A stretch of 64,000 nt of DNA from Candidatus Tiamatella incendiivivens (GTDB lineage: Archaea; Thermoproteota; Thermoprotei_A; Sulfolobales; Acidilobaceae), in contig WALW01000019.1 of NCBI GenBank assembly GCA_015522635.1, forward strand, positions 124,001-188,000, written 5' to 3'. The first letter of the stretch is position 1. Each line of letters begins with the position of its first letter. The position numbers were made by a program, and so were the translations under genes. Positions 22,370 through 32,751 of this stretch are shown one piece after another. Below the pieces are notes generated by a model, which worked only from the letters and a program-made list of their open reading frames with translations, did not search any database and had not been told where the DNA came from.

Positions 22370-23530
22370 TTGCCTGAAGCAGTTTTACCTAGAAGAATAA
22401 TTTTCGATGAAAACGTCGGTGATTCACTTACTAGCCTCTTATCCGTAATCGGGTCATCAAAAGCTTTAGTGATAACCGATAAAACTCTCAGAGAATTAGG
22501 CTTAGTTGACAAGATTTTGTCAACACTTGAAAACTCGGAAGTTCCCTTCAAATTATTTGATAAGGTACCTCCTGAACCTCCGATATCTATAGCTGGTGAA
22601 ATAGCTGATGCAGCAAGAGAATTTAATCCTGACACCTTCATCGCGGTGGGCGGAGGCAGCGTTATTGACGCTGCTAAAGCAGGATTAGTTAAGTATGTAA
22701 GGCCGGATTACGATGTACGTGATATTAGCCCCTTCGAAGTAATAGGGCTGGAAGCAAGGAAACCTGTTTTAATAACTATTCCAACAACGAGTGGGACGGG
22801 AAGCGATGCTACACTTGGAGTAGTTCTTACAGATAATGTTGAAGGAGATAGGATAAAGATAGCACTAGGATCCCCAGAGGTGGTTCCATTTGCAACTATC
22901 CTTGACCCGGATATGGTGAAGGCTTTACCGAGTAAGCTAAGAATAGCAACAGGGATTGACGCCCTTTCACATGCCATGGAAGCCTACATTTCGAATCAAG
23001 CAAACCCGCTCTCTGACGCATTAGCGGAGAAAGCGGTTACATTAATCTTCCAGTACCTCTCGAATGCAGTAAGTGGGGATGAGGAGGCAATCAGTAAGAT
23101 GCATATAGCCGCTACGTTAGCTGGTGCAGCTTTTTCGAACAGCGGGTTAGGAATGGCACATGCTATTGCACACCCGCTTGGTAGCATATTAGGAACACAT
23201 CACGGCTTGACTGTAGGAGTAGTTCTACCCTATGTTATGGAGTATAATATAAAGCATAGCGAAGAAGTAGCTTCCAAATATAAGAAGCTAGCTAGAATCA
23301 TTGGTGAACATACGGATAGGGAGATCAAGGATATCGTCTCAGCTGTCATAGAATTCTATGAAACCCTGCGCTTCCCCTTAAAGTTCAGGGATGTAGGTAT
23401 TAGTAAAGAGAAATATTCAGAGGCAATAGAGAAACTTCCATTTCTAGCATTACAAGATGCGGATATAGCCTTCGCACCCGTAGTCCCTTCGCCTGAAGAA
23501 ATAAAGTCTCTTGTAGAGAACATGTATTAA
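22370..23530 (+). CDS. iron-containing alcohol dehydrogenase
   Basis: A group III (iron-dependent) alcohol dehydrogenase of 386 residues. The NAD(P)-binding loop VGGGSVIDAAKAGL, the substrate-side TIPTTSGTGSDAT, and the metal-ligand regions GIDALSHAMEAY, GMAHAIAHPLG and GTHHGLTVGVVLP are all present, giving Asp and three His ligands. It would interconvert an alcohol and an aldehyde or ketone with NAD(P)H; the substrate is unknown. TTG 22370 follows an AGGTG motif with rather long spacing. The SCP2 gene follows 34 bases later and may be co-transcribed. Confidence 0.9.
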   Translation: MPEAVLPRRIIFDENVGDSLTSLLSVIGSSKALVITDKTLRELGLVDKILSTLENSEVPFKLFDKVPPEPPISIAGEIADAAREFNPDTFIAVGGGSVIDAAKAGLVKYVRPDYDVRDISPFEVIGLEARKPVLITIPTTSGTGSDATLGVVLTDNVEGDRIKIALGSPEVVPFATILDPDMVKALPSKLRIATGIDALSHAMEAYISNQANPLSDALAEKAVTLIFQYLSNAVSGDEEAISKMHIAATLAGAAFSNSGLGMAHAIAHPLGSILGTHHGLTVGVVLPYVMEYNIKHSEEVASKYKKLARIIGEHTDREIKDIVSAVIEFYETLRFPLKFRDVGISKEKYSEAIEKLPFLALQDADIAFAPVVPSPEEIKSLVENMY

Positions 23531-23564: not shown

Positions 23565-24002
23565 GTGGAGGAAAAATTCATTCCAACACCAGAATGGGCT
23601 GAACTCTTCTGCAAAGCACTAAACGAGCTTGACGGATACAAGAAAAGCGGGAAGGGTTGGGTATGGCCTATACTTTTCAAAGCCAAAGACCTACCCGAGG
23701 ATATTAGGGAAATCTATAATAGCGAGACTATAGGCTGGAAACTAGACCTCTATAATGGAACCTGCCGTGGAATGGAATGGTATAATGATGCCAGCCAAGC
23801 TGAGGCGGAATACGTAATAACAGCCGCATACAAGGATTGGGTTAGCATTCTAGAGGGCAAGTTGAACCCAACTACTGCATTGATGAGGAGGAAACTAAAG
23901 ATAGAGAAAGGCAGTTATGCAACTGTTTTAAGGTACCCGATAGCTGCTCTCTACCTAGTTAAAGCGGCTAAAATTGCATGGGAGAAAACTAGGGAAAAGT
24001 AG
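23565..24002 (+). CDS. SCP2 sterol-binding-like domain protein
   Basis: A 145-residue protein resembling the SCP2 fold. Visible elements are WPILFKAKDLPEDIREIYN, then GWKLDLYNGTCRGMEWYND, EAEYVITAAYKDWVSILEGK and NPTTALMRRKLKIEKG, which match the hydrophobic-pocket and C-terminal helix regions. Such proteins bind lipids or acyl-CoA; in this fatty-acid/CoA-related neighbourhood that is plausible but inferred. GTG start at 23565. The last 14 bases overlap the 3-prime end of the convergent flavoprotein gene. Confidence 0.8.
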   Translation: MEEKFIPTPEWAELFCKALNELDGYKKSGKGWVWPILFKAKDLPEDIREIYNSETIGWKLDLYNGTCRGMEWYNDASQAEAEYVITAAYKDWVSILEGKLNPTTALMRRKLKIEKGSYATVLRYPIAALYLVKAAKIAWEKTREK

Positions 24003-25041
24003 CAAGCCTAATAATAATATCTGCTATTAGGGGAGAAGCTGTAAAACCAGGGCTATCTATTCCCGCAGTCACGATTATTCTTCCTTTTTTATCTATGTAA
24101 AAATCATCTTTTGAGAGGTTCTTAGATCTCGTACCGGCATCAGCACTAAGTATTTTTGGTGTATCAGGTAACAGTTTGCTGTACAAGTCGATCGTACTGA
24201 ATACCTCTTCAGTGGAGACTTTAGTATCCCACGGGTCTTGAGTCTCTATAAATGATGGGCCTAGTAGGACACGGCCGTCAGGCAAGGGTATTATACCTCC
24301 TCCCTTTGTTTCCTTTGACCTTGCCCTGGAAACCAACGGAGCTATAATAGAGTTACAATCGAATTTAACGTAAACCATGACTCCTTTATAGTAACCTATC
24401 TTAGGTATTTTCCCTTGAACAAGATTAACAACACCAGGGCCAGCTGCTATTACTACCTTATCATAGCACTCACTTCCATTAATATGGTTAATACACACCT
24501 TCTGGTTATGCTCCCTTATAGATTCAACCTTTGCGGAATAAATTATACTCCCACCTTTCTCCAATATACCTTTAGCTAACGCCTTTAGAACTTCTTTAGG
24601 TATAACAGTTCCATAGCCTTCCACTTTCACTCCACCAATAACGTCAGAAGAGATTTCAGGGCAACTACTTACCACTTCGTCTCTATTCGCCAATGACGCT
24701 TTGTAACCCACAAGCTTTAGGAGTGAGGCTGCAAAAACTCCTAGAAATCTTTCCTTTCTACTCGTATATACAAGGTATAAAGGCATTCTAAGGATCCTGA
24801 ATCCTAACTCTGCTGCTAATCCATCATACAGAGGATTCGCCTTCTTTGCTAGCCTAGCTTTCCTATTTATGAAAGGTGGTTGCAGAACATGTAAAACCCC
24901 AGCAGTGTGTCCGCTTGCACCAAAACCCAGTTCAGCTGCCTGCTCGTAAACAGTGACTTCAATTCCTTCTGATACAGCTCTGTATGCTGCCTGAAGACCA
25001 ACTACTCCAGCTCCTATGATTGCTATTCTCAATTCATTCAT
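23989..25041 (-). CDS. DAO-family FAD-dependent oxidoreductase (GlpA/D-like)
   Basis: A 350-residue FAD oxidoreductase of the DAO superfamily. It has the Rossmann fingerprint IAIIGAGVVGLQAAYRAVSEG, GFGASGHTAGVLHVLQPP, a VVIAAGPG strand, GRVLLGPSFIETQDP and a C-terminal VTAGIDSPGFTASPLIAD. The overall pattern resembles glycerol-3-phosphate or 2-hydroxyacid dehydrogenases (GlpA/LhgO-like). It is the last gene of a four-gene operon, overlapping the AGPS-like gene by 8 bases, with an Fe-S protein and an FGGY kinase upstream. A role oxidising a phosphorylated polyol is inferred. Confidence 0.82.
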   Translation of the reverse strand: MNELRIAIIGAGVVGLQAAYRAVSEGIEVTVYEQAAELGFGASGHTAGVLHVLQPPFINRKARLAKKANPLYDGLAAELGFRILRMPLYLVYTSRKERFLGVFAASLLKLVGYKASLANRDEVVSSCPEISSDVIGGVKVEGYGTVIPKEVLKALAKGILEKGGSIIYSAKVESIREHNQKVCINHINGSECYDKVVIAAGPGVVNLVQGKIPKIGYYKGVMVYVKFDCNSIIAPLVSRARSKETKGGGIIPLPDGRVLLGPSFIETQDPWDTKVSTEEVFSTIDLYSKLLPDTPKILSADAGTRSKNLSKDDFYIDKKGRIIVTAGIDSPGFTASPLIADIIIRLATFP

Positions 25042-26416
25042 GCCTCAACAAGTCATTCCTTAGAATATTCGAAGGATCAACAGCTTTCTTGATTTCATTC
25101 AAGAATCGAATACCACGTTCACCATATTCTAGTTTTAAATATTTTACTCTCATCCTACCCACTCCATGATGATGTGAGATACTACCATTATGCCTAGATG
25201 TTTCATTCATCAACGTGTCCCATATCCTCATATAGACATCATCGAGTCTTTCAAGAGAATAGGCTACCGTGTAATATAGGGCTACTCCGCTTTGATAGAA
25301 ATGGCTCGCGTGAACACCTATGAAATATAATCCATCTATAGATTCTAGCTTTTGGATGCTATCGGAATACAGAAAATATACCCATCCCCATGGGACTGAG
25401 ACCTCTATAGTTTCGAACCCCATTCCTAACTCATAGATCTTCCATAGATCTTCTATTACATTAAATCTTTTATCAAGCCATTTTTCAGCATAATAGCCAC
25501 CTGAGTGTACATCTTTTCCTACCAGCTTCTCAAGCTCCTCGATCCTAGCTCTCACAAGTCTACAAGAACCCTCAACCACACCGATGGAAACGCTTCCCTC
25601 CTCCCCGAAATGTAATAAGGACTCGCGCCTATCATATATTCTAAAAAGATCCGGAGAGAGCCTCTTGCCAACAATTATTCTAGCTTTCTCTAAAGCGTCT
25701 CCAAACGATTTATCTTGCCATCCGACCTTCTCAGAGCATTCCGGTAACTCGTAGGTGGATAAATACACCCGGGTCACTATCCCGTAGAGCCCCTCATTTC
25801 CTATGAATAAGTGGTCTAGCGGGAGGAGGAGGCTCCTACGCGGTGCAGGTTTAATCTCTAGCTTTCCGATCCTTGGAACAATAATGTTTAAACCTAAAAC
25901 CATATTTTCTATTCCACCGTAACCTGTTGAGTACTGACCTATACTCCTAGTGGAGACAAGGCCTCCCAGCATAGCCTCCGGATAAGACTGTGGGAAATGC
26001 CTTAGCGTTCTACCTCGCCTTTGAAGCCACTCTTCTAGTAATCTGAGATAAACTCCCGCTCCAACATCAACTATTCCTGCTTTTTCATCATACCATTTAA
26101 TCCAGTTTAACCGTGAAAGATCGATTACAACCCATCCACTATCAGGTACTGCTCCTCCCAGAACACCGGATCCTCCACTATATGGTACTACCACTATATG
26201 GTTTTCATTTGCAAATCTAAGTATTTCGACGACTTCTTCCTCTGACCCCGGGAGAACGACTGCTACAGGAGCACTATGATCCGAACCCTTCAATTCTCTA
26301 TAAACTAGTAAAGGCCAATAATCCCTTGAATACGGGTAAATTTCCCAGCTACCTGTTAAAACCCAGCGATCTCCTAGCAATCTTCGAGACTGAGTTATAA
26401 ACCTCTCCACACTCAT
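25034..26416 (-). CDS. FAD-linked oxidase with the AGPS HHH motif
   Basis: A 460-residue flavoprotein of the vanillyl-alcohol oxidase/PCMH family. The FAD-binding loop reads VVPYSGGSGVLGG, followed by GGLVSTRSIGQYSTGYGGIE and an FIGNEGLYGIVTRV segment. Near the C-terminus is SISHHHGVGRMR with three adjacent histidines (415-417). This HHH motif is a hallmark of alkyldihydroxyacetonephosphate synthase, the ether-lipid enzyme of eukaryotes, where the histidines are needed for catalysis. Relatives also include D-lactate and glycolate dehydrogenases, so the activity is not settled. It sits between an Fe-S protein (1-base overlap) and a DAO flavoprotein (8-base overlap). Confidence 0.8.
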   Translation of the reverse strand: MSVERFITQSRRLLGDRWVLTGSWEIYPYSRDYWPLLVYRELKGSDHSAPVAVVLPGSEEEVVEILRFANENHIVVVPYSGGSGVLGGAVPDSGWVVIDLSRLNWIKWYDEKAGIVDVGAGVYLRLLEEWLQRRGRTLRHFPQSYPEAMLGGLVSTRSIGQYSTGYGGIENMVLGLNIIVPRIGKLEIKPAPRRSLLLPLDHLFIGNEGLYGIVTRVYLSTYELPECSEKVGWQDKSFGDALEKARIIVGKRLSPDLFRIYDRRESLLHFGEEGSVSIGVVEGSCRLVRARIEELEKLVGKDVHSGGYYAEKWLDKRFNVIEDLWKIYELGMGFETIEVSVPWGWVYFLYSDSIQKLESIDGLYFIGVHASHFYQSGVALYYTVAYSLERLDDVYMRIWDTLMNETSRHNGSISHHHGVGRMRVKYLKLEYGERGIRFLNEIKKAVDPSNILRNDLLRHE

Positions 26417-27291
26417 TACATTTCACCTCTGATGAAGTCAAAAGGTGCCCTAGCAAAGTACCCGGATTTCAATAAATGAGATCTACCACGAGAGCAAAGC
26501 GTAATTATAGGTATATCCTTTCCATAACCCTTTAGTGATAAGTCAATTACTTCAACCGCAATCTCGGGGTGCTTTTCCGGTAGTCCACCTCCGCCTCCTA
26601 TACACTTATCAACTATATTGATAGGCTCTCCTAGAACTCTGGTTGAGACGTCGGCAAGCAATTGCCTGTTTTTAATTGGAACCTTACATGGAATATGGAG
26701 TAAGTATTCTCTATTCCCTACTATATTCCTATAACCTAACATATCAAGCAATTGAATAGAGTAGATCACTTTATCTCCCCAATCACTTCCTATAACAGAG
26801 GCTATGTCTAAATCCTCCAGAACAACAAAATCAAATTTATCAATGTTTAACTGGATATCAAAGCCGTTCCAATAAGCTGTATATAATGGATTGGAGTCTA
26901 ACCAGTAAACTTTGTAGAGCTTCTTTAAGGACTCGATGGTATCTCTTCTCAGAGTATTTGATGAGACTAATAGTAAACTAGAACCACTTCCCCCTAGAAA
27001 TTTTTCTTCAAGATTAATTGTTTCTTTTTGTACCCTCTGCCCCCTAGTTATCCTGAGAGCTTCCCATAAAGAATTACTTATAGGGCAATTGTATTCACAC
27101 TCTCTACAGCCAGTACATAACCATAGAGCAGGATAATAGTCTCCATAGCCATTTAAATACTTCAAACCTATTCTCGCCAAATTATTCGGTGACGATGCTC
27201 TAATGTGAGTATTCATATATACGGGACAATGTGTGACGCATATACCTGGGCATAGAGCACATTGCGTAAACGTTTTCATAGGATCAGGCAA
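26416..27291 (-). CDS. Fe-S protein, GlpC/GlcF-like N-terminal half
   Basis: A 291-residue protein with two [4Fe-4S] motifs near the N-terminus: CALCPGICVTHCP (about 11-23) and CTGCRECEYNCP (about 59-70). They resemble the ferredoxin domain of GlpC, GlcF and HdrC-type subunits. The remainder lacks clear CCG repeats; single cysteines occur around HIPCKVPIK, CIGGGGG and LCSRGRSH, so the second domain is divergent. It probably transfers electrons from the neighbouring flavoproteins to an acceptor. TTG start with GAGGAGGTG upstream; the stop TAA overlaps the next ATG. Confidence 0.8.
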   Translation of the reverse strand: MPDPMKTFTQCALCPGICVTHCPVYMNTHIRASSPNNLARIGLKYLNGYGDYYPALWLCTGCRECEYNCPISNSLWEALRITRGQRVQKETINLEEKFLGGSGSSLLLVSSNTLRRDTIESLKKLYKVYWLDSNPLYTAYWNGFDIQLNIDKFDFVVLEDLDIASVIGSDWGDKVIYSIQLLDMLGYRNIVGNREYLLHIPCKVPIKNRQLLADVSTRVLGEPINIVDKCIGGGGGLPEKHPEIAVEVIDLSLKGYGKDIPIITLCSRGRSHLLKSGYFARAPFDFIRGEM

Positions 27292-27305
27292 TCATTAACA
27301 CCTCC

Positions 27306-28724
27306 TCATTTTAGGGCACTAGTTTTAGATTGAATCGTTCTGGCCCAATCCGCTATGGTTTGTGTATCAATTAAAACTAAATCGGAATTAGGCTCCACTT
27401 CTGAGAATTCCATCTCAGGTGTTAAATTCCATCCTTTCGATTCTGCTGCCTGTAATGCCGCTCCTAAAGCAGTAGCATCAAGTCTTTTCGACACAAGTAT
27501 TTTTGCATTGAGATACGATGCAACAAGTTCGTTAAACCTGTTGAGCCTCGATAAACCACCTGTCACAAGTATTTTGCTCGGCCTCCCATATCTAGCTATT
27601 ATTTTATTATAAACATATACTAATGCAGCTGTTACACCATGTGCAAGCCCGTTTGCAATGCTTTCAATGTTATATCCGGGTTCGAGTCCAATTATACCTG
27701 AAACTCCCTTGTGAAGCCGGGGAGTTCTACCTCCCCAGATATATGGAATTACTATAGGAGGTTTTCTTTCACTAATACAGTTATCCATCTCATCATAGCT
27801 TCCTCTAAATAAGTTTTCCACGAACCATTCAACCGATTTGCCCATGCCTGTAAGGTATCCTTCGACTCCCATAATTTTTCTATTTCTACTTACATATAAT
27901 GTAATGGGTAAAAGACCTTCAGGCAGTATAGTACCGGTAGAATAATCCCCTAGAGAGTAGTCTATAAAGAATCCTGTTCCTAGGCTTATTTTCATGCAGC
28001 CTTTTTCTAGACACTGTAAACCAATGCTTGTTGCTTGCTGGTCTCCTAGAAGGCTTCTTATCTCAAGTCCCATGGTTTCCATTACTAGTTCATCATAACT
28101 AAGTGTTAAAGGAAACTCCATCTGCGGTAGATCTAGGAGTTTTAGAACAATATCCAATGGCTTCAATGTTTTTGGATTAATCAGGCCGGTTAACGCAGAT
28201 GTGGAGGGGTCTGCAATAAACCTACCGGAGAGAGAATACGCTATATAAGCATCGACATTCCATGCTAAAGCTGTCTTCTTATCTAGTAAATCATTAAGCT
28301 CCGGTCTCTCCATTAGATAGGTTTTTAGTTTTACAGCCGTTGATTCTGGTGAAAACGCTGATCCTATTATAGGTAGTTTACTAGCCAACCTGGCTTTCAA
28401 TGGAAGTTTACTGTAATTTATAGCTGACCTATAATCCATCCAAGTAATTATTGGCGAGAGCTTTCGACCATTCCTATCCCAAACGACGAGTGATCCTCTA
28501 TATGTGGCTATACCTACTGTTTCTGCACCTTCCACGGCTGCTTTTTCCAATAGGTCTTTAACAGTCGCCAGAAGAGTATCCGGGTTTTGCTCAGCTACTG
28601 GTCCTATTAGAGTGGTATGATTCGGTATAGTTATACTCTTTAATGCCTTTAGGCCATCATCATAGATGACTAGGCTGATTTTACTGGTTCCTATATCGAG
28701 TCCGGCTATTTTCTGCTCCTTCAA
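27306..28724 (-). CDS. FGGY-family carbohydrate/polyol kinase, glycerol kinase-like
   Basis: A 472-residue FGGY kinase. The N-terminal phosphate-1 loop GLDIGTSKISLVIYD, the LGDQQATSIGLQ segment with the catalytic-type Asp, KISLGTGFFID, and the C-terminal ILVTGGLSRLNRFNELVA resemble glycerol kinase. However, the glycerol-contacting Arg-Glu pair is Arg-Gly here (GIATYRGSLVVWD) and the residue expected to be Tyr in the PYFSG-type loop appears replaced (SAFSPEST). The substrate may therefore be glycerol or a different polyol. It is the first gene of the operon, 14 bases before the Fe-S gene. TTG start, GAGG upstream. Confidence 0.83.
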   Translation of the reverse strand: MKEQKIAGLDIGTSKISLVIYDDGLKALKSITIPNHTTLIGPVAEQNPDTLLATVKDLLEKAAVEGAETVGIATYRGSLVVWDRNGRKLSPIITWMDYRSAINYSKLPLKARLASKLPIIGSAFSPESTAVKLKTYLMERPELNDLLDKKTALAWNVDAYIAYSLSGRFIADPSTSALTGLINPKTLKPLDIVLKLLDLPQMEFPLTLSYDELVMETMGLEIRSLLGDQQATSIGLQCLEKGCMKISLGTGFFIDYSLGDYSTGTILPEGLLPITLYVSRNRKIMGVEGYLTGMGKSVEWFVENLFRGSYDEMDNCISERKPPIVIPYIWGGRTPRLHKGVSGIIGLEPGYNIESIANGLAHGVTAALVYVYNKIIARYGRPSKILVTGGLSRLNRFNELVASYLNAKILVSKRLDATALGAALQAAESKGWNLTPEMEFSEVEPNSDLVLIDTQTIADWARTIQSKTSALK

Positions 28725-28790: not shown

Positions 28791-29984
28791 TTACCCTGAC
28801 CGGCTAGGCAATAGATATGTGTCGGGTGGAACCCCGCTGATCCTATCTGATTCTATTACTTTAAGAATACCCCAGCCAGATTGCTCGAGAGCTGATTTGA
28901 TTTCTTTTCCAGCAATACTACCCCAGCCATATGAAGCAATTATTATAGCATTCTTATCTACCGGAGATATCTTCTCTTTAATTTCCTCCACAATAAATCT
29001 CATTAATGGTTGAACTCTTGCTTCATATGTTCCAGTGGCTAGAACCAGCAGTTCCGTTCTATTAATAACAGCAAGTATATCTGATAAATTAGGCCTTTTC
29101 TGATCGTTTAATACAAATTTATGCACGCGATAACCTTTCGAGCGGAGTTCAGATTCGACTGCAGTAACAAGCATGTCTGTTTGACCATACATTGTTACCT
29201 GAACTATTGTTGCTCTTTTTTCAACAGGTTCACCTTCTGCCCATGCCTGGTATTTATCTACGATGGTTCTCGGATTCCCAAGCCATAGGAGACCGTGGCC
29301 TGGGAGTATACCCTTTATTCTACTTTCAAGCGTTCTAATCTTAGATATACCTGATAAGAGGTTCTTCCTGTAATGACCTACTACTGTCACCATGTATTTT
29401 TCAGCCGAATACATATAGTTTTCTGGGACACAGTCTAAATCGGTTATACAGTCAGGTATACTGTAGCCTCCAAATGCATCGCAAGTTAATAATAAACCGT
29501 CTTCTTCTATCAGCGTAAACATTGTTTCGGGCCAGTGTATCCAAGGCGCATAAAGGAATCGTAGATGTTTATCTCCGATTTTTATGACTTGATCGTTTTT
29601 AACGACCTCGATCCGACTAGAAGGAATCCCGTAGAATTTCTCTAACATCTTCTTGCCTATAGGGTGAATAAGCATCTTTGTATCACTATACATTTTAGAA
29701 AGTATTTTAATAGAGCCAGTGTGATCAGGCTCCATATGATGGACTACAACGTATTTTAGTTCAGAGGGACTAGTCAAAGTAGAAAGTGTCTCTATTAGTT
29801 CATTTGCAAAAACTGATTTCCAACCATCGAATAAAACGTCTCCTTCACTTGTTTTTAGCAAATATGCATTATAGGTTATGCCTTCAGGTATTTCCCATAG
29901 GGATTCAAAGTAACGGGTTTTCTCATCGTCCACACGCAACAGGTATAGACTGCCTGTTAATTGCCTAGTAGAAATTTTAGCCAA
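28791..29984 (-). CDS. A-type flavoprotein (FprA/flavodiiron protein)
   Basis: A 397-residue flavodiiron protein. The N-terminal metallo-beta-lactamase-like domain has the diiron ligand motif HHMEPDHTGS (HxExDH) and later GHGLLWLGNP. The C-terminal flavodoxin domain follows from ATIVQVTMYGQTDMLVTAVE to the FMN loop region IIASYGWGSIAGKEIK. Characterised members reduce oxygen or nitric oxide using FMN and a diiron centre, protecting oxygen-sensitive enzymes. TTG 29984 follows GGGGATGAGAT. A TATA-like element (TCATTTATAA, minus strand) lies at 30041-30050. The FGGY kinase is 66 bases downstream. Confidence 0.92.
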   Translation of the reverse strand: MAKISTRQLTGSLYLLRVDDEKTRYFESLWEIPEGITYNAYLLKTSEGDVLFDGWKSVFANELIETLSTLTSPSELKYVVVHHMEPDHTGSIKILSKMYSDTKMLIHPIGKKMLEKFYGIPSSRIEVVKNDQVIKIGDKHLRFLYAPWIHWPETMFTLIEEDGLLLTCDAFGGYSIPDCITDLDCVPENYMYSAEKYMVTVVGHYRKNLLSGISKIRTLESRIKGILPGHGLLWLGNPRTIVDKYQAWAEGEPVEKRATIVQVTMYGQTDMLVTAVESELRSKGYRVHKFVLNDQKRPNLSDILAVINRTELLVLATGTYEARVQPLMRFIVEEIKEKISPVDKNAIIIASYGWGSIAGKEIKSALEQSGWGILKVIESDRISGVPPDTYLLPSRSG

Positions 29985-30090: not shown

Positions 30091-31251
30091 TTAGGGTTTG
30101 TATGGACGGATTTTCCCTGTTAATGCTCTAACTATCACAAGCTTCTGAATTTCATTAGTTCCATCTCCTATTTCAATCATCTTTATGTCCCTATATAGTC
30201 TCTCGACCCTGGATTCCCTACTATAGCCGAATCCTCCGTGAACCTGTAAAGCCATTCTAACTATATCGGTCCCCCATTTAGCAGCCGAGTATTTAGCCAT
30301 ACTGGCTAACCTGATATAGTCAGGATCTCCCTGATCAGCTTTCCATGCAGCTGAATATATCATGCTTCGGACTGCTTCAAGTTTAAGTGACATATCTGCT
30401 ACATGAGAAGCTACCATTTGATGATCTATTAGTGGGACACCCATACTGGTCCTAGTTTTAGTATATTTTAAGGCATCCTCGAAAGCAGCTTGAGCTACAC
30501 CTAACCCGGTAGACGCTGTCACGATTCTGCCTTCATTTAAAGCCATCATAGCTATCTTGAATCCGTCTCCTTCCCTCCCAATCATATTCTCTTTAGGAAC
30601 CCTACACTCGTTGAAGAGAATTTCACTAGTTCCAGAACCTCGGTAGCCCATCATATCTAGCTTCGAGACTTCGACGCAGTCTGAACGATCAACCGCAAAT
30701 AGTGATATACCCCTATATCTTTCCTCAGGTTTTCCTGTTCTTGCTGCTACCAGGAAGAAATCAGCATAAACACCGTTTGTTATGAATGTTTTTCTCCCCG
30801 TAATAACATATTCATCTCCTTCTCTAACTGCTTTTGTCGTAAGGGATGCTGCATCACTACCGCAGCATGGTTCAGTGAGCCCAAATGCACCAACTCCTCC
30901 TTTTGCCAGTCGTGCCAGATATTTCTCTTTGATATCAGGTGATGCATATTCTACTATAGGATAAGCTACCATGTCTCCGGATACTGTTGCCAGTATCCCT
31001 ACACCACTACTTACCCGACTCAATTCCTCTGCAGCTACTGCTGCCTGAAGCAATGTAAACCCTGGGCCACCATATTCCTCTGGAACTCTCATTGATGTAA
31101 AACCCATTTCACCTAAACTTCTTAGGATATCTTGTGGGATAATATTTTCCTCATCAATCTTCCTTGCAACAGGGTCAATGTATTTCTCAGCAAATTCCCT
31201 GACCATATTTCTTATAACCGGTAACTGAGGATCTAGATGATCGAATACCAA
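30091..31251 (-). CDS. acyl-CoA dehydrogenase
   Basis: An acyl-CoA dehydrogenase of 386 residues, oxidising acyl-CoA to enoyl-CoA with FAD and normally passing electrons to ETF, which is encoded 19 kb away. Signatures: AFGLTEPCCGSDAASL, TFITNGVYADFFLVAART, and the C-terminal HGGFGYSRESRVERLYRD. The usual catalytic Glu of the YEGT motif is replaced by Asp (EIGDGTNEIQ), and the alternative site used by isovaleryl-type enzymes is Gly, so the catalytic base may be Asp. TTG 31251 lies 8 bases after GGAGGTG; GTG 31260 overlaps that motif. Confidence 0.9.
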   Translation of the reverse strand: MVFDHLDPQLPVIRNMVREFAEKYIDPVARKIDEENIIPQDILRSLGEMGFTSMRVPEEYGGPGFTLLQAAVAAEELSRVSSGVGILATVSGDMVAYPIVEYASPDIKEKYLARLAKGGVGAFGLTEPCCGSDAASLTTKAVREGDEYVITGRKTFITNGVYADFFLVAARTGKPEERYRGISLFAVDRSDCVEVSKLDMMGYRGSGTSEILFNECRVPKENMIGREGDGFKIAMMALNEGRIVTASTGLGVAQAAFEDALKYTKTRTSMGVPLIDHQMVASHVADMSLKLEAVRSMIYSAAWKADQGDPDYIRLASMAKYSAAKWGTDIVRMALQVHGGFGYSRESRVERLYRDIKMIEIGDGTNEIQKLVIVRALTGKIRPYKP

Positions 31252-31351
31252 GCAAAGCACACCTCCAAAATGATCTGAGGACTGTAACCGTTTTCATATA
31301 AGAAAGGTGTATTTACATGTTAAAAATAAAATTTTGGGTAATAAAAACGAG

Positions 31352-31428: not shown

Positions 31429-32751
31429 TCAAAGTCTTCTAATTATCTTCCACCCCTTCAGGCCTATTATAACACCGTTACTCCTTAGTTCAACGATTCT
31501 CCTACTGATCTCTTTCTGTTTTAACCAATCACCAAACAGCTTACCCCTACCTACCAGCTTCATTAATCTTTTCATAAACCACTGAGGCGGATCCCTAGGA
31601 TTATACCCTTCGAGTGGAGTTCCCGGAAGGGGCAAGAAATAGTGAGCATGTATTCTAGCATTGAAATCCAAGGCAAGTCTCTCCGTTAAATGGAGCGTGT
31701 CTTGTAGGTCATCTTCCTCTTCGAAAGGCAGTGCGTATATAAAGTCTACATCAACACTGAAGCCTTGTTTATTCAACTTCTCGACAGCTCCAACGATTGC
31801 ATCAACATCGTGTCCTCTGTTAAGTATTTTTAGAACCCTCAATGATCCAGATTGTGCCCCTATTATCACGTTTTTATTGGACACAGTATTTCGAAGGCAT
31901 TTGACAGCGTCTCCTATAATAGCATGCTCCGGCCTGATTTCGCTGGGAAATGAACCCATAAATATTCGTCCTGAATACAACCTACTTTCCTCCTTTAATC
32001 TGTAAAGTAGACTGCATAACTTACCTATGTCCACATCCTTGCCCTGGGAACCATATGAGAACGCGTTGGGGGTTATAAACCGTAAATCTTTCCGTCCACT
32101 TGACCAGAATATTTTAGCGTAGTGCAATATGTTACCAGGCATCCTGTGCCTGATTACTGCTCCATGCATATAGGGGACTTCACAGTACCTGCAACCCCAA
32201 ATGCATCCTCTTGTTATTTCTATGGGAGCAAATATTCCCTCCCAATAGGGGAATGGTGGATTACTATTTAGATCAACTTTACCTTGTTTACCAGTGTAGA
32301 TTGGACTATTGCCAACCCTTGTTACTATACCTCTAACCTTCAAGTAATCTTCTTTTTGTGCAAAACTGACCAGATACTCCGGTAGGCTTTCCTCGGCCTC
32401 GCCATGGAAAATCGTTTCAAAACCGAGTTTAAGGGTACCTAGAGGATCGCCTGTCGGGTGAGATCCTCCTGCTATAAGATGTATATTCTTATTTCTAACT
32501 GATTCAACTACCCATTTAATTTCATCTAATAATTCTGGAAGGATTGTTGTCAAGAGGCTATAGGCTATGAACACTATGTAACCTTTCTCAACAAACCGCA
32601 AAGCGTCCGAAACCATTAAACCCGGATTTCTATAGGATTTAGTGACTAATGGAATCCCTCTTTCTAGTAATTTCTTTTCTAAAACTGCTCGTAATTGTGC
32701 AAGGCTATACCTCGACTCTTCGAGGAACCTGTATAGAAAAGCTATCTTCAA
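31429..32751 (-). CDS. B12-binding-type radical SAM protein, MJ1487-like
   Basis: A 440-residue radical SAM protein. The N-terminal about 150 residues look like a cobalamin-binding-type Rossmann region (VEKGYIVFIAYSLLTTILPE, IHLIAGGSHPTGDP). The Fe-S motif is GCIWGCRYC (CX3CX2C). The rest forms the barrel, with SLRVLKILNRGHDVDAIV and a C-terminal FLPLPGTPLEG stretch common to methylthiotransferase-like proteins. It resembles TIGR04013. The DxHxxG cobalamin motif is not seen, so B12 binding is doubtful. The reaction is unknown. TTG start with GGGTG upstream. Confidence 0.8.
   Translation of the reverse strand: MKIAFLYRFLEESRYSLAQLRAVLEKKLLERGIPLVTKSYRNPGLMVSDALRFVEKGYIVFIAYSLLTTILPELLDEIKWVVESVRNKNIHLIAGGSHPTGDPLGTLKLGFETIFHGEAEESLPEYLVSFAQKEDYLKVRGIVTRVGNSPIYTGKQGKVDLNSNPPFPYWEGIFAPIEITRGCIWGCRYCEVPYMHGAVIRHRMPGNILHYAKIFWSSGRKDLRFITPNAFSYGSQGKDVDIGKLCSLLYRLKEESRLYSGRIFMGSFPSEIRPEHAIIGDAVKCLRNTVSNKNVIIGAQSGSLRVLKILNRGHDVDAIVGAVEKLNKQGFSVDVDFIYALPFEEEDDLQDTLHLTERLALDFNARIHAHYFLPLPGTPLEGYNPRDPPQWFMKRLMKLVGRGKLFGDWLKQKEISRRIVELRSNGVIIGLKGWKIIRRL

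Follow-up and report, generated by a model that had tools for sequence, protein, structure and literature searches.

Which compound is metabolised by an archaeal operon that sets a kinase of the glycerol kinase fold beside a flavoenzyme resembling alkylglycerone phosphate synthase (AGPS)? The question is raised by four genes of Candidatus Tiamatella incendiivivens, found in a stretch of 64,000 nucleotides of contig WALW01000019.1 (hereafter the window, whose numbering is used throughout) from a genome of 1.45 Mb that is ~96% complete. We propose, in a judgement that is evenly balanced, that the operon would serve the O2-independent breakdown of O-alkylglycerols, the glycerol mono-ethers derived from lipid turnover, through AGPS chemistry operating in reverse. 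Calling of open reading frames placed the four genes on the minus strand in the following order:

27306-28724, minus strand: FGGY kinase, 472 amino acids (aa), TTG start; proposed O-alkylglycerol kinase (Pfam FGGY_N/FGGY_C, fold model, residue signature)
26416-27291, minus strand: Fe-S protein, 291 aa, TTG start; proposed electron carrier for the DAO flavoprotein (Pfam Fer4_8)
25034-26416, minus strand: AGPS-type flavoenzyme, 460 aa, ATG start; proposed alkyl-dihydroxyacetone phosphate ether-cleaving enzyme (Pfam FAD_binding_4 and FAD-oxidase_C)
23989-25041, minus strand: DAO flavoprotein, 350 aa, ATG start; proposed (alkyl)glycerol-phosphate dehydrogenase (Pfam DAO)

The successive junctions are a gap of 14 bases, an overlap of 1 base and an overlap of 8 bases, exactly as described in the initial annotation of this DNA. 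Both TTG codons were taken mechanically as the first starts and are slightly uncertain; a GGAGG sequence is located just 5′ of the TTG of the Fe-S gene.

The flavoenzyme is closer to AGPS than to GlcD

A profile built from 18 relatives of the flavoenzyme matched ADPS (2uuu) with 311 bits and the guinea-pig AGPS with 292 bits, while the best glycolate/lactate dehydrogenase reached 193 bits. The AlphaFold2 model (predicted local distance difference test, pLDDT, of 88) gave the same picture. The first 37 Foldseek matches in the PDB were all AGPS/ADPS chains, the mammalian ones with template-modelling (TM) scores of 0.87-0.91, and LDHD appeared later with a score of ~0.83. According to the profile alignment, R419, Y578 and H615-H617 of the guinea-pig AGPS correspond to R259, Y381 and H415-H417 of the flavoenzyme, the three histidines lying in SHHHGVG, so that the HHH motif noticed earlier was found again. 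The first two positions are those of R352 and Y508 in the Dictyostelium enzyme (chain index plus 3), where Arg352, Tyr508 and Arg447 were reported to be important for catalysis (PMC3509576). The equivalents of R419, Y578 and the third histidine are present in all 57 operon-type enzymes, whereas E, H and GEHG occupy the R419, Y578 and HHH positions of the GlcD paralogues. The operon enzyme shares the superfamily and the domain layout of the GlcD/LDHD/D2HGDH dehydrogenases but lacks their motifs: GlcD paralogues of the same order, one of them from the same genome, carry HxGDGN and GEHG (SEHG in one), which are replaced in the alignment by HASHFYQSG and SHHHGVG.

A tree of the flavoenzymes, obtained by a quick method with SH-aLRT support, separated the HHH enzymes from GlcD (support 99). 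Operon enzymes from bacteria formed one group with the eukaryotic AGPS and the solo proteins of bacteria (support 98), in which the eukaryotic AGPS joined the solo proteins (support 100), apart from the operon type. Both types, operon and solo, occur together in several Myxococcota genomes. Because the eukaryotic AGPS groups with the solo proteins, the operon type is a sister kind to the biosynthetic AGPS and not AGPS itself. It has in common with AGPS/ADPS (2uuu, 4bby) the fold, the FAD_binding_4/FAD-oxidase_C architecture, Arg419, Tyr578 and the HHH motif; it differs in being shorter, in being encoded beside a kinase and a dehydrogenase, in lacking Arg515 and in its proposed function, which would be to cleave the ether and not to form it. 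The active-site residues, the profile, the fold and the tree support an archaeal use of AGPS-type chemistry, one of two alternatives put forward in the initial annotation.

The kinase has lost two glycerol ligands

The kinase model (pLDDT 88) resembled glycerol kinases, which made up the PDB matches listed, and yet the protein scored only 129 bits against the GlpK family model TIGR01311, below its cut-off of 590.35 bits. In E. coli GlpK, glycerol is hydrogen-bonded by R83, E84, Y135 and D245 (PMC3245297). The residues of the window kinase at R83/E84/Y135/D245/F270 are R/G/E/D/F, so that the ligands Glu84 (replaced by Gly) and Tyr135 (replaced by Glu) are lost and Arg83 and Asp245 are retained; together with the FGGY fold, Gln246 and Phe270, the latter two are what it still shares with GlpK. 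The change at Glu84 is the Arg-Gly that had been noted in place of the Arg-Glu of canonical glycerol kinases (Arg76-Gly77 in the window protein). It is not peculiar to this genome: across two domains, all of the AGPS-linked kinases (47/47) have G, A or S at the Glu84 position, where the canonical kinases have E (30/30), and tyrosine, invariant at position 135 in the 30 canonical kinases, was found in only one of the 47. The other alternative of the initial annotation, that a glycerol-like compound is processed by a route not recognised so far, is consistent with this residue signature. No canonical GlpK scoring above the cut-off was found in the AGPS-type genomes outside Sulfolobaceae. The same genome encodes a second FGGY kinase (L101:6878-8425, G000:C6), which is xylulokinase-like (SQMAG motif) and adjoins a group II decarboxylase-like gene.

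The DAO flavoprotein and the Fe-S protein

The best PDB match of the DAO family profile was the glycerophosphate oxidase GlpO of M. pneumoniae (4x9m, 161 bits), whose catalytic base is His51 (PMC10726252); this residue aligns with His51 of the DAO flavoprotein and is invariant. The DAO flavoprotein gave 90.9 bits with the NCBIfam model of type 2 glycerol-3-phosphate (G3P) oxidase, below the 460-bit cut-off. It resembles the GlpO/GlpA-type G3P oxidoreductases, which contain flavin adenine dinucleotide (FAD), in its DAAO fold and catalytic histidine, but is short, has no C-terminal domain, and is linked to its own Fe-S partner and to the AGPS-type enzyme. This partner is a Fer4_8 dicluster protein (CxxCxxxCxxxCP and CxxCxxCxxxCP), degenerate in its C-terminal half and weakly similar to GlpC, LutB and HdrC; two GlpC-like models gave 25.1 and 18.8 bits, below their cut-offs of 278 and 280. 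The electron partner varies between lineages: the operon of the window has the Fe-S protein, L039-L043 have a GlpB-like flavoprotein together with a longer DAO protein, and bacteria have GlpD with DAO_C. A canonical GlpK plus GlpABC system was rejected on the residue signature and the score cut-offs.

Conservation of the gene grouping

Among named organisms, Candidatus Tiamatella is the closest, with an AGPS-type protein 78% identical, followed by metagenome-assembled genomes (MAGs) of Desulfurococcales/Acidilobaceae. Conservation of the four-gene order, proposed earlier as a check, was observed in the two congeneric loci L032 and L033 and in L035/L036; in the two congeners the genes for iron-containing alcohol dehydrogenase (Fe-ADH), SCP2, DAO, AGPS-type, Fe-S, kinase and acyl-CoA dehydrogenase are collinear as one block. 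The grouping is not due to chance, because this order is kept and because the trio of kinase, AGPS-type enzyme and DAO protein recurs widely. A trio of kinase, G3P dehydrogenase and AGPS-type enzyme recurs in Thermoproteota and Myxococcota, the arrangement being kinase and AGPS in Nitrososphaeria, GlpD-AGPS-kinase in Myxococcota and a GlpD-AGPS pair in Chloroflexota. The search in bacteria covered 26 operon-type loci (25 from Myxococcota and one from a MAG labelled Proteobacteria); a GlpD-type gene stood beside the AGPS gene in 23 of them and a kinase gene likewise in 23. A membrane protein of the Type I phosphodiesterase family (L040:3580-5244) is encoded directly upstream of the DAO-GlpB-like-kinase-AGPS operon, as are its homologues in L041 and L042; it might remove lipid head groups.

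The operon lies in a fatty-acid-oxidation context

Three neighbouring genes are probably associated with the operon:

22370-23530, plus strand: iron-containing alcohol dehydrogenase, 386 aa; proposed fatty-alcohol dehydrogenase
23565-24002, plus strand: SCP2-domain protein, 145 aa; lipid carrier (Pfam SCP2)
30091-31260, minus strand: acyl-CoA dehydrogenase, 389 aa

The SCP2 gene is convergent with the DAO gene and overlaps it by 14 bases. Such neighbours are repeatedly met. An SCP2 gene was found near 9 of the 24 cassette loci versus ~2.7% expected for a 20-kb span in genomes holding ~2 SCP2 copies, the loci not being independent, and one is also present near L066/L067 and L138. Fe-ADH is a neighbour in L032-L034, L044, L051, L066, L067 and L138, and the upstream acyl-CoA dehydrogenase is conserved in L032/L033 and also found near the cassettes of L041, L042 and L050. 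In the Nitrososphaeria loci L066/L067, SCP2, Fe-ADH, Fe-S, AGPS-type and kinase genes stand together, with an acyl/acetyl-CoA synthetase nearby. The DAO-kinase-AGPS genes of L138 are followed downstream, on their own strand, by a probable aldehyde dehydrogenase, as read from its sequence, adjoining Fe-ADH and SCP2.

We then considered whole genomes in a class-wide survey of 165 genomes with a completeness of at least 80%. The AGPS type was detected in 33 of them, belonging to five families, with a clean gap in score from 332.8 down to 214.7 bits. At least three Acyl-CoA_dh_1 genes were carried by 33/33 AGPS-type genomes versus 38/132 of the others. The genome of the window encodes 13 AMP-binding ligases, six acyl-CoA dehydrogenases and five proteins with enoyl-CoA hydratase hits, one of which is a fused 3-hydroxyacyl-CoA dehydrogenase-like protein.

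A predicted pathway for ether cleavage

In the proposed pathway, the kinase would use ATP to phosphorylate an alkylglycerol at its free primary hydroxyl, yielding alkylglycerol phosphate. The DAO flavoprotein would then convert this into alkyl-dihydroxyacetone phosphate by oxidation at the C2 hydroxyl and pass the electrons to the Fe-S protein, other lineages using a GlpB-like flavoprotein or a GlpD-type dehydrogenase. The AGPS-type enzyme would run the half-reaction of AGPS towards cleavage: Tyr381 would take the C1 proton, N5 of FAD would form the adduct with dihydroxyacetone phosphate (DHAP), and the alcohol would leave with a proton from the histidine cluster. Water would finally resolve the N5 adduct, the products being a fatty alcohol and DHAP. 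The neighbouring Fe-ADH could oxidise the alcohol, and oxidation of the aldehyde and ligation to CoA would lead into beta-oxidation.

We infer the identity of the substrate, the cleaving direction, water as the acceptor and the electron path. The direction is suggested by the dehydrogenases, which are of the oxidative FAD type and not NADPH reductases. Mono-ethers would be the expected substrates because C2 must be free, and a dialkylglycerol would not be directly usable. Since oxidation at C2 removes the stereocentre, mono-ethers of bacterial and archaeal type would converge on one intermediate, provided that the dehydrogenase accepts both. More tentatively, and with somewhat less than even confidence, we suggest that a conserved module found across domains, in which an alkylglycerol kinase and an alkylglycerol-phosphate dehydrogenase are joined by an AGPS-type ether cleaver, performs O2-independent ether-lipid breakdown by covalent catalysis at FAD N5, in principle on mono-ethers of either stereochemistry. 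The initial annotation, which had offered AGPS-type chemistry and a route for a glycerol-like compound as alternatives, stopped short of a pathway; the fatty-acid-oxidation context, the conservation across domains, the joint loss of Glu84 and Tyr135 and the missing Arg515 go beyond it.

Points against the pathway and alternative explanations

Several observations weigh against ether cleavage as the function. The position of AGPS Arg515 (Arg447 in Dictyostelium) is Leu324 in the flavoenzyme; it is hydrophobic in 55 of the 57 operon-type enzymes, Pro in two and Arg in none, and Arg is found there in the eukaryotic AGPS and in 6/8 solo bacterial proteins. Because a residue reported to be important for catalysis is absent, the reaction of the operon enzymes may differ from that of AGPS, and it is mainly for this reason that we do not call the enzyme an AGPS; our guess is that Arg515 may be missing because there is no carboxylate partner. 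The HHH motif is HQH in six archaeal operon enzymes and DHH in one. Solo HHH proteins occur in Sulfolobaceae (L136, L137, L139, L140 and L145) with no kinase gene beside them, and the four checked have Val in place of Arg419; in genome G165 the HHH protein is likewise solo, away from the glycerol kinase genes of that genome, and neither supports nor refutes the operon logic. The loss of Glu84 amounts to a single change on the kinase tree, so that the 47 versus 30 are not 47 independent events. It is for that reason a stable property of the AGPS-linked kinases; convergent loss in several kinase lineages, hinted at by L044 and the Myxococcota kinases, was rejected on the same tree. The association with beta-oxidation is confounded by ancestry, with a family-level p of ~0.001 for which the families were counted in part among the matches listed. 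Opp-type ABC transporters near L040 and L047 could mean a soluble substrate. The pathway is a prediction from gene content, conservation, active-site residues, fold and genome context, and to our knowledge reverse AGPS chemistry with water as the acceptor has never been demonstrated.

These transporters also bear on a variant, which we regard as rather unlikely, in which the same chemistry acts on another leaving group (glycosylglycerol, head-group-linked glycerol or a vinyl ether), O-substituted DHAP giving DHAP and ROH. The changes at Glu84 and Tyr135 say only that the glycerol site was altered, and the phosphodiesterase-family protein preceding the operons of L040-L042 would fit such a substrate; an alkyl chain is nevertheless favoured by the repeated SCP2, acyl-CoA dehydrogenase, Fe-ADH, aldehyde dehydrogenase and CoA-ligase neighbours, and by the restriction of the cassette to genomes rich in acyl-CoA dehydrogenases. 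That the AGPS-type enzyme instead forms alkyl-DHAP, the kinase and DAO protein supplying DHAP or recycling alkylglycerols into lipids, would agree with the biosynthetic role of AGPS in eukaryotes and with the conserved HHH, Arg419 and Tyr578. We find this improbable: eukaryotic AGPS groups with the non-cassette bacterial proteins, most of which keep Arg515, some Myxococcota genomes carry both types, the partner dehydrogenase is an oxidising flavoprotein, and the genomes point to fatty-acid oxidation. Archaeal core ether lipids, moreover, are made by the glycerol-1-phosphate/geranylgeranylglyceryl phosphate (G1P/GGGP) route.

Ordinary glycerol catabolism, by a divergent glycerol kinase, a GlpA/GlpO-like dehydrogenase and an Fe-S carrier with the flavoenzyme as an accessory of separate function, also appears unlikely. 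The fold and best family model of the kinase are those of glycerol kinase, the DAO protein is nearest to GlpO, and the operon kinase could substitute for the canonical glycerol kinase that its genome lacks; against this stand the low GlpK score, the loss of two of the four hydrogen-bonding residues and the linkage to AGPS conserved across phyla. Very improbable, finally, is a D-2-hydroxyacid dehydrogenase of the GlcD/LDHD type with the Fe-S protein as its GlcF-like partner. The Pfam pair is the same, an Fe-S gene adjoins, and glcD is the best NCBIfam model (although with 115 bits versus a cut-off of 568), but the replacement of HxGDGN and GEHG and the lead of AGPS by profile, fold and tree led us to reject this identity. 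An ordinary glycerol kinase accompanied by a D-lactate/glycolate-type dehydrogenase, the finding that was expected to speak against the initial annotation, is thus contradicted at the sequence level.

Relation to known systems

Glycerol metabolism in archaea through glycerol kinase (GK) and G3P dehydrogenase (G3PDH) was surveyed by Schmerling et al. 2025, with no mention of AGPS or GlcD (PMC11962113). That pathway shares with the operon the logic of a kinase and an FAD dehydrogenase, and in S. acidocaldarius the genes saci_1117-1119 are likewise close to genes for lipid degradation; it differs by its canonical GK, its CoxG anchor and the absence of an AGPS-type partner (PMC11962113). The sole known alkylglycerol-cleaving enzyme is described as alkylglycerol monooxygenase (AGMO), which achieves the same end with an unrelated protein and requires O2 and tetrahydrobiopterin (PMC7911779). 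Archaeal lipid turnover has been called poorly studied, and products of ether cleavage are seen in sediments (PMC12718374). In a literature search that covered few subscription papers and no bioRxiv preprints, we found no description of the module and no enzyme opening glycerol ether bonds without O2. If true, the ether-cleavage pathway would provide a long-missing enzyme for glycerol-ether turnover in anoxic settings, and an enzyme family that builds ether lipids in animals would be run in reverse by a hot-vent archaeon, other archaea and distant bacteria. The operon, which offers specific genes, a signature of residues and a testable mechanism, is also relevant to what becomes of ether-lipid biomarkers.

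Other genes at the loci

Just upstream of the kinase gene, an FprA/flavorubredoxin-like ODP protein is encoded at 28791-29984; it is present in L032 and absent at the matching place in L033. A TIGR04013 B12-binding/radical SAM protein (31429-32751) adjoins the acyl-CoA dehydrogenase gene in all three congeneric loci. At L050:11502-15584, kinase, AGPS-type and DAO genes are followed by genes for an acyl-CoA dehydrogenase, a mesaconyl-CoA-hydratase-like MaoC protein, a CoA transferase and an HpcH-type lyase, which may form a methyl-branched acid route. Elsewhere in the genome of the window (G000:C10, L103:12183-13001), a phosphoesterase/phospholipase C-like protein (ENHSFDNYFG, recognised by eye) is encoded a few kb away from genes for acyl-CoA synthetase and acyl-CoA dehydrogenase. 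Several short genes for PIN-domain (VapC-like) toxins, identified by eye from their N-termini, form a run at L103:1008-5020.

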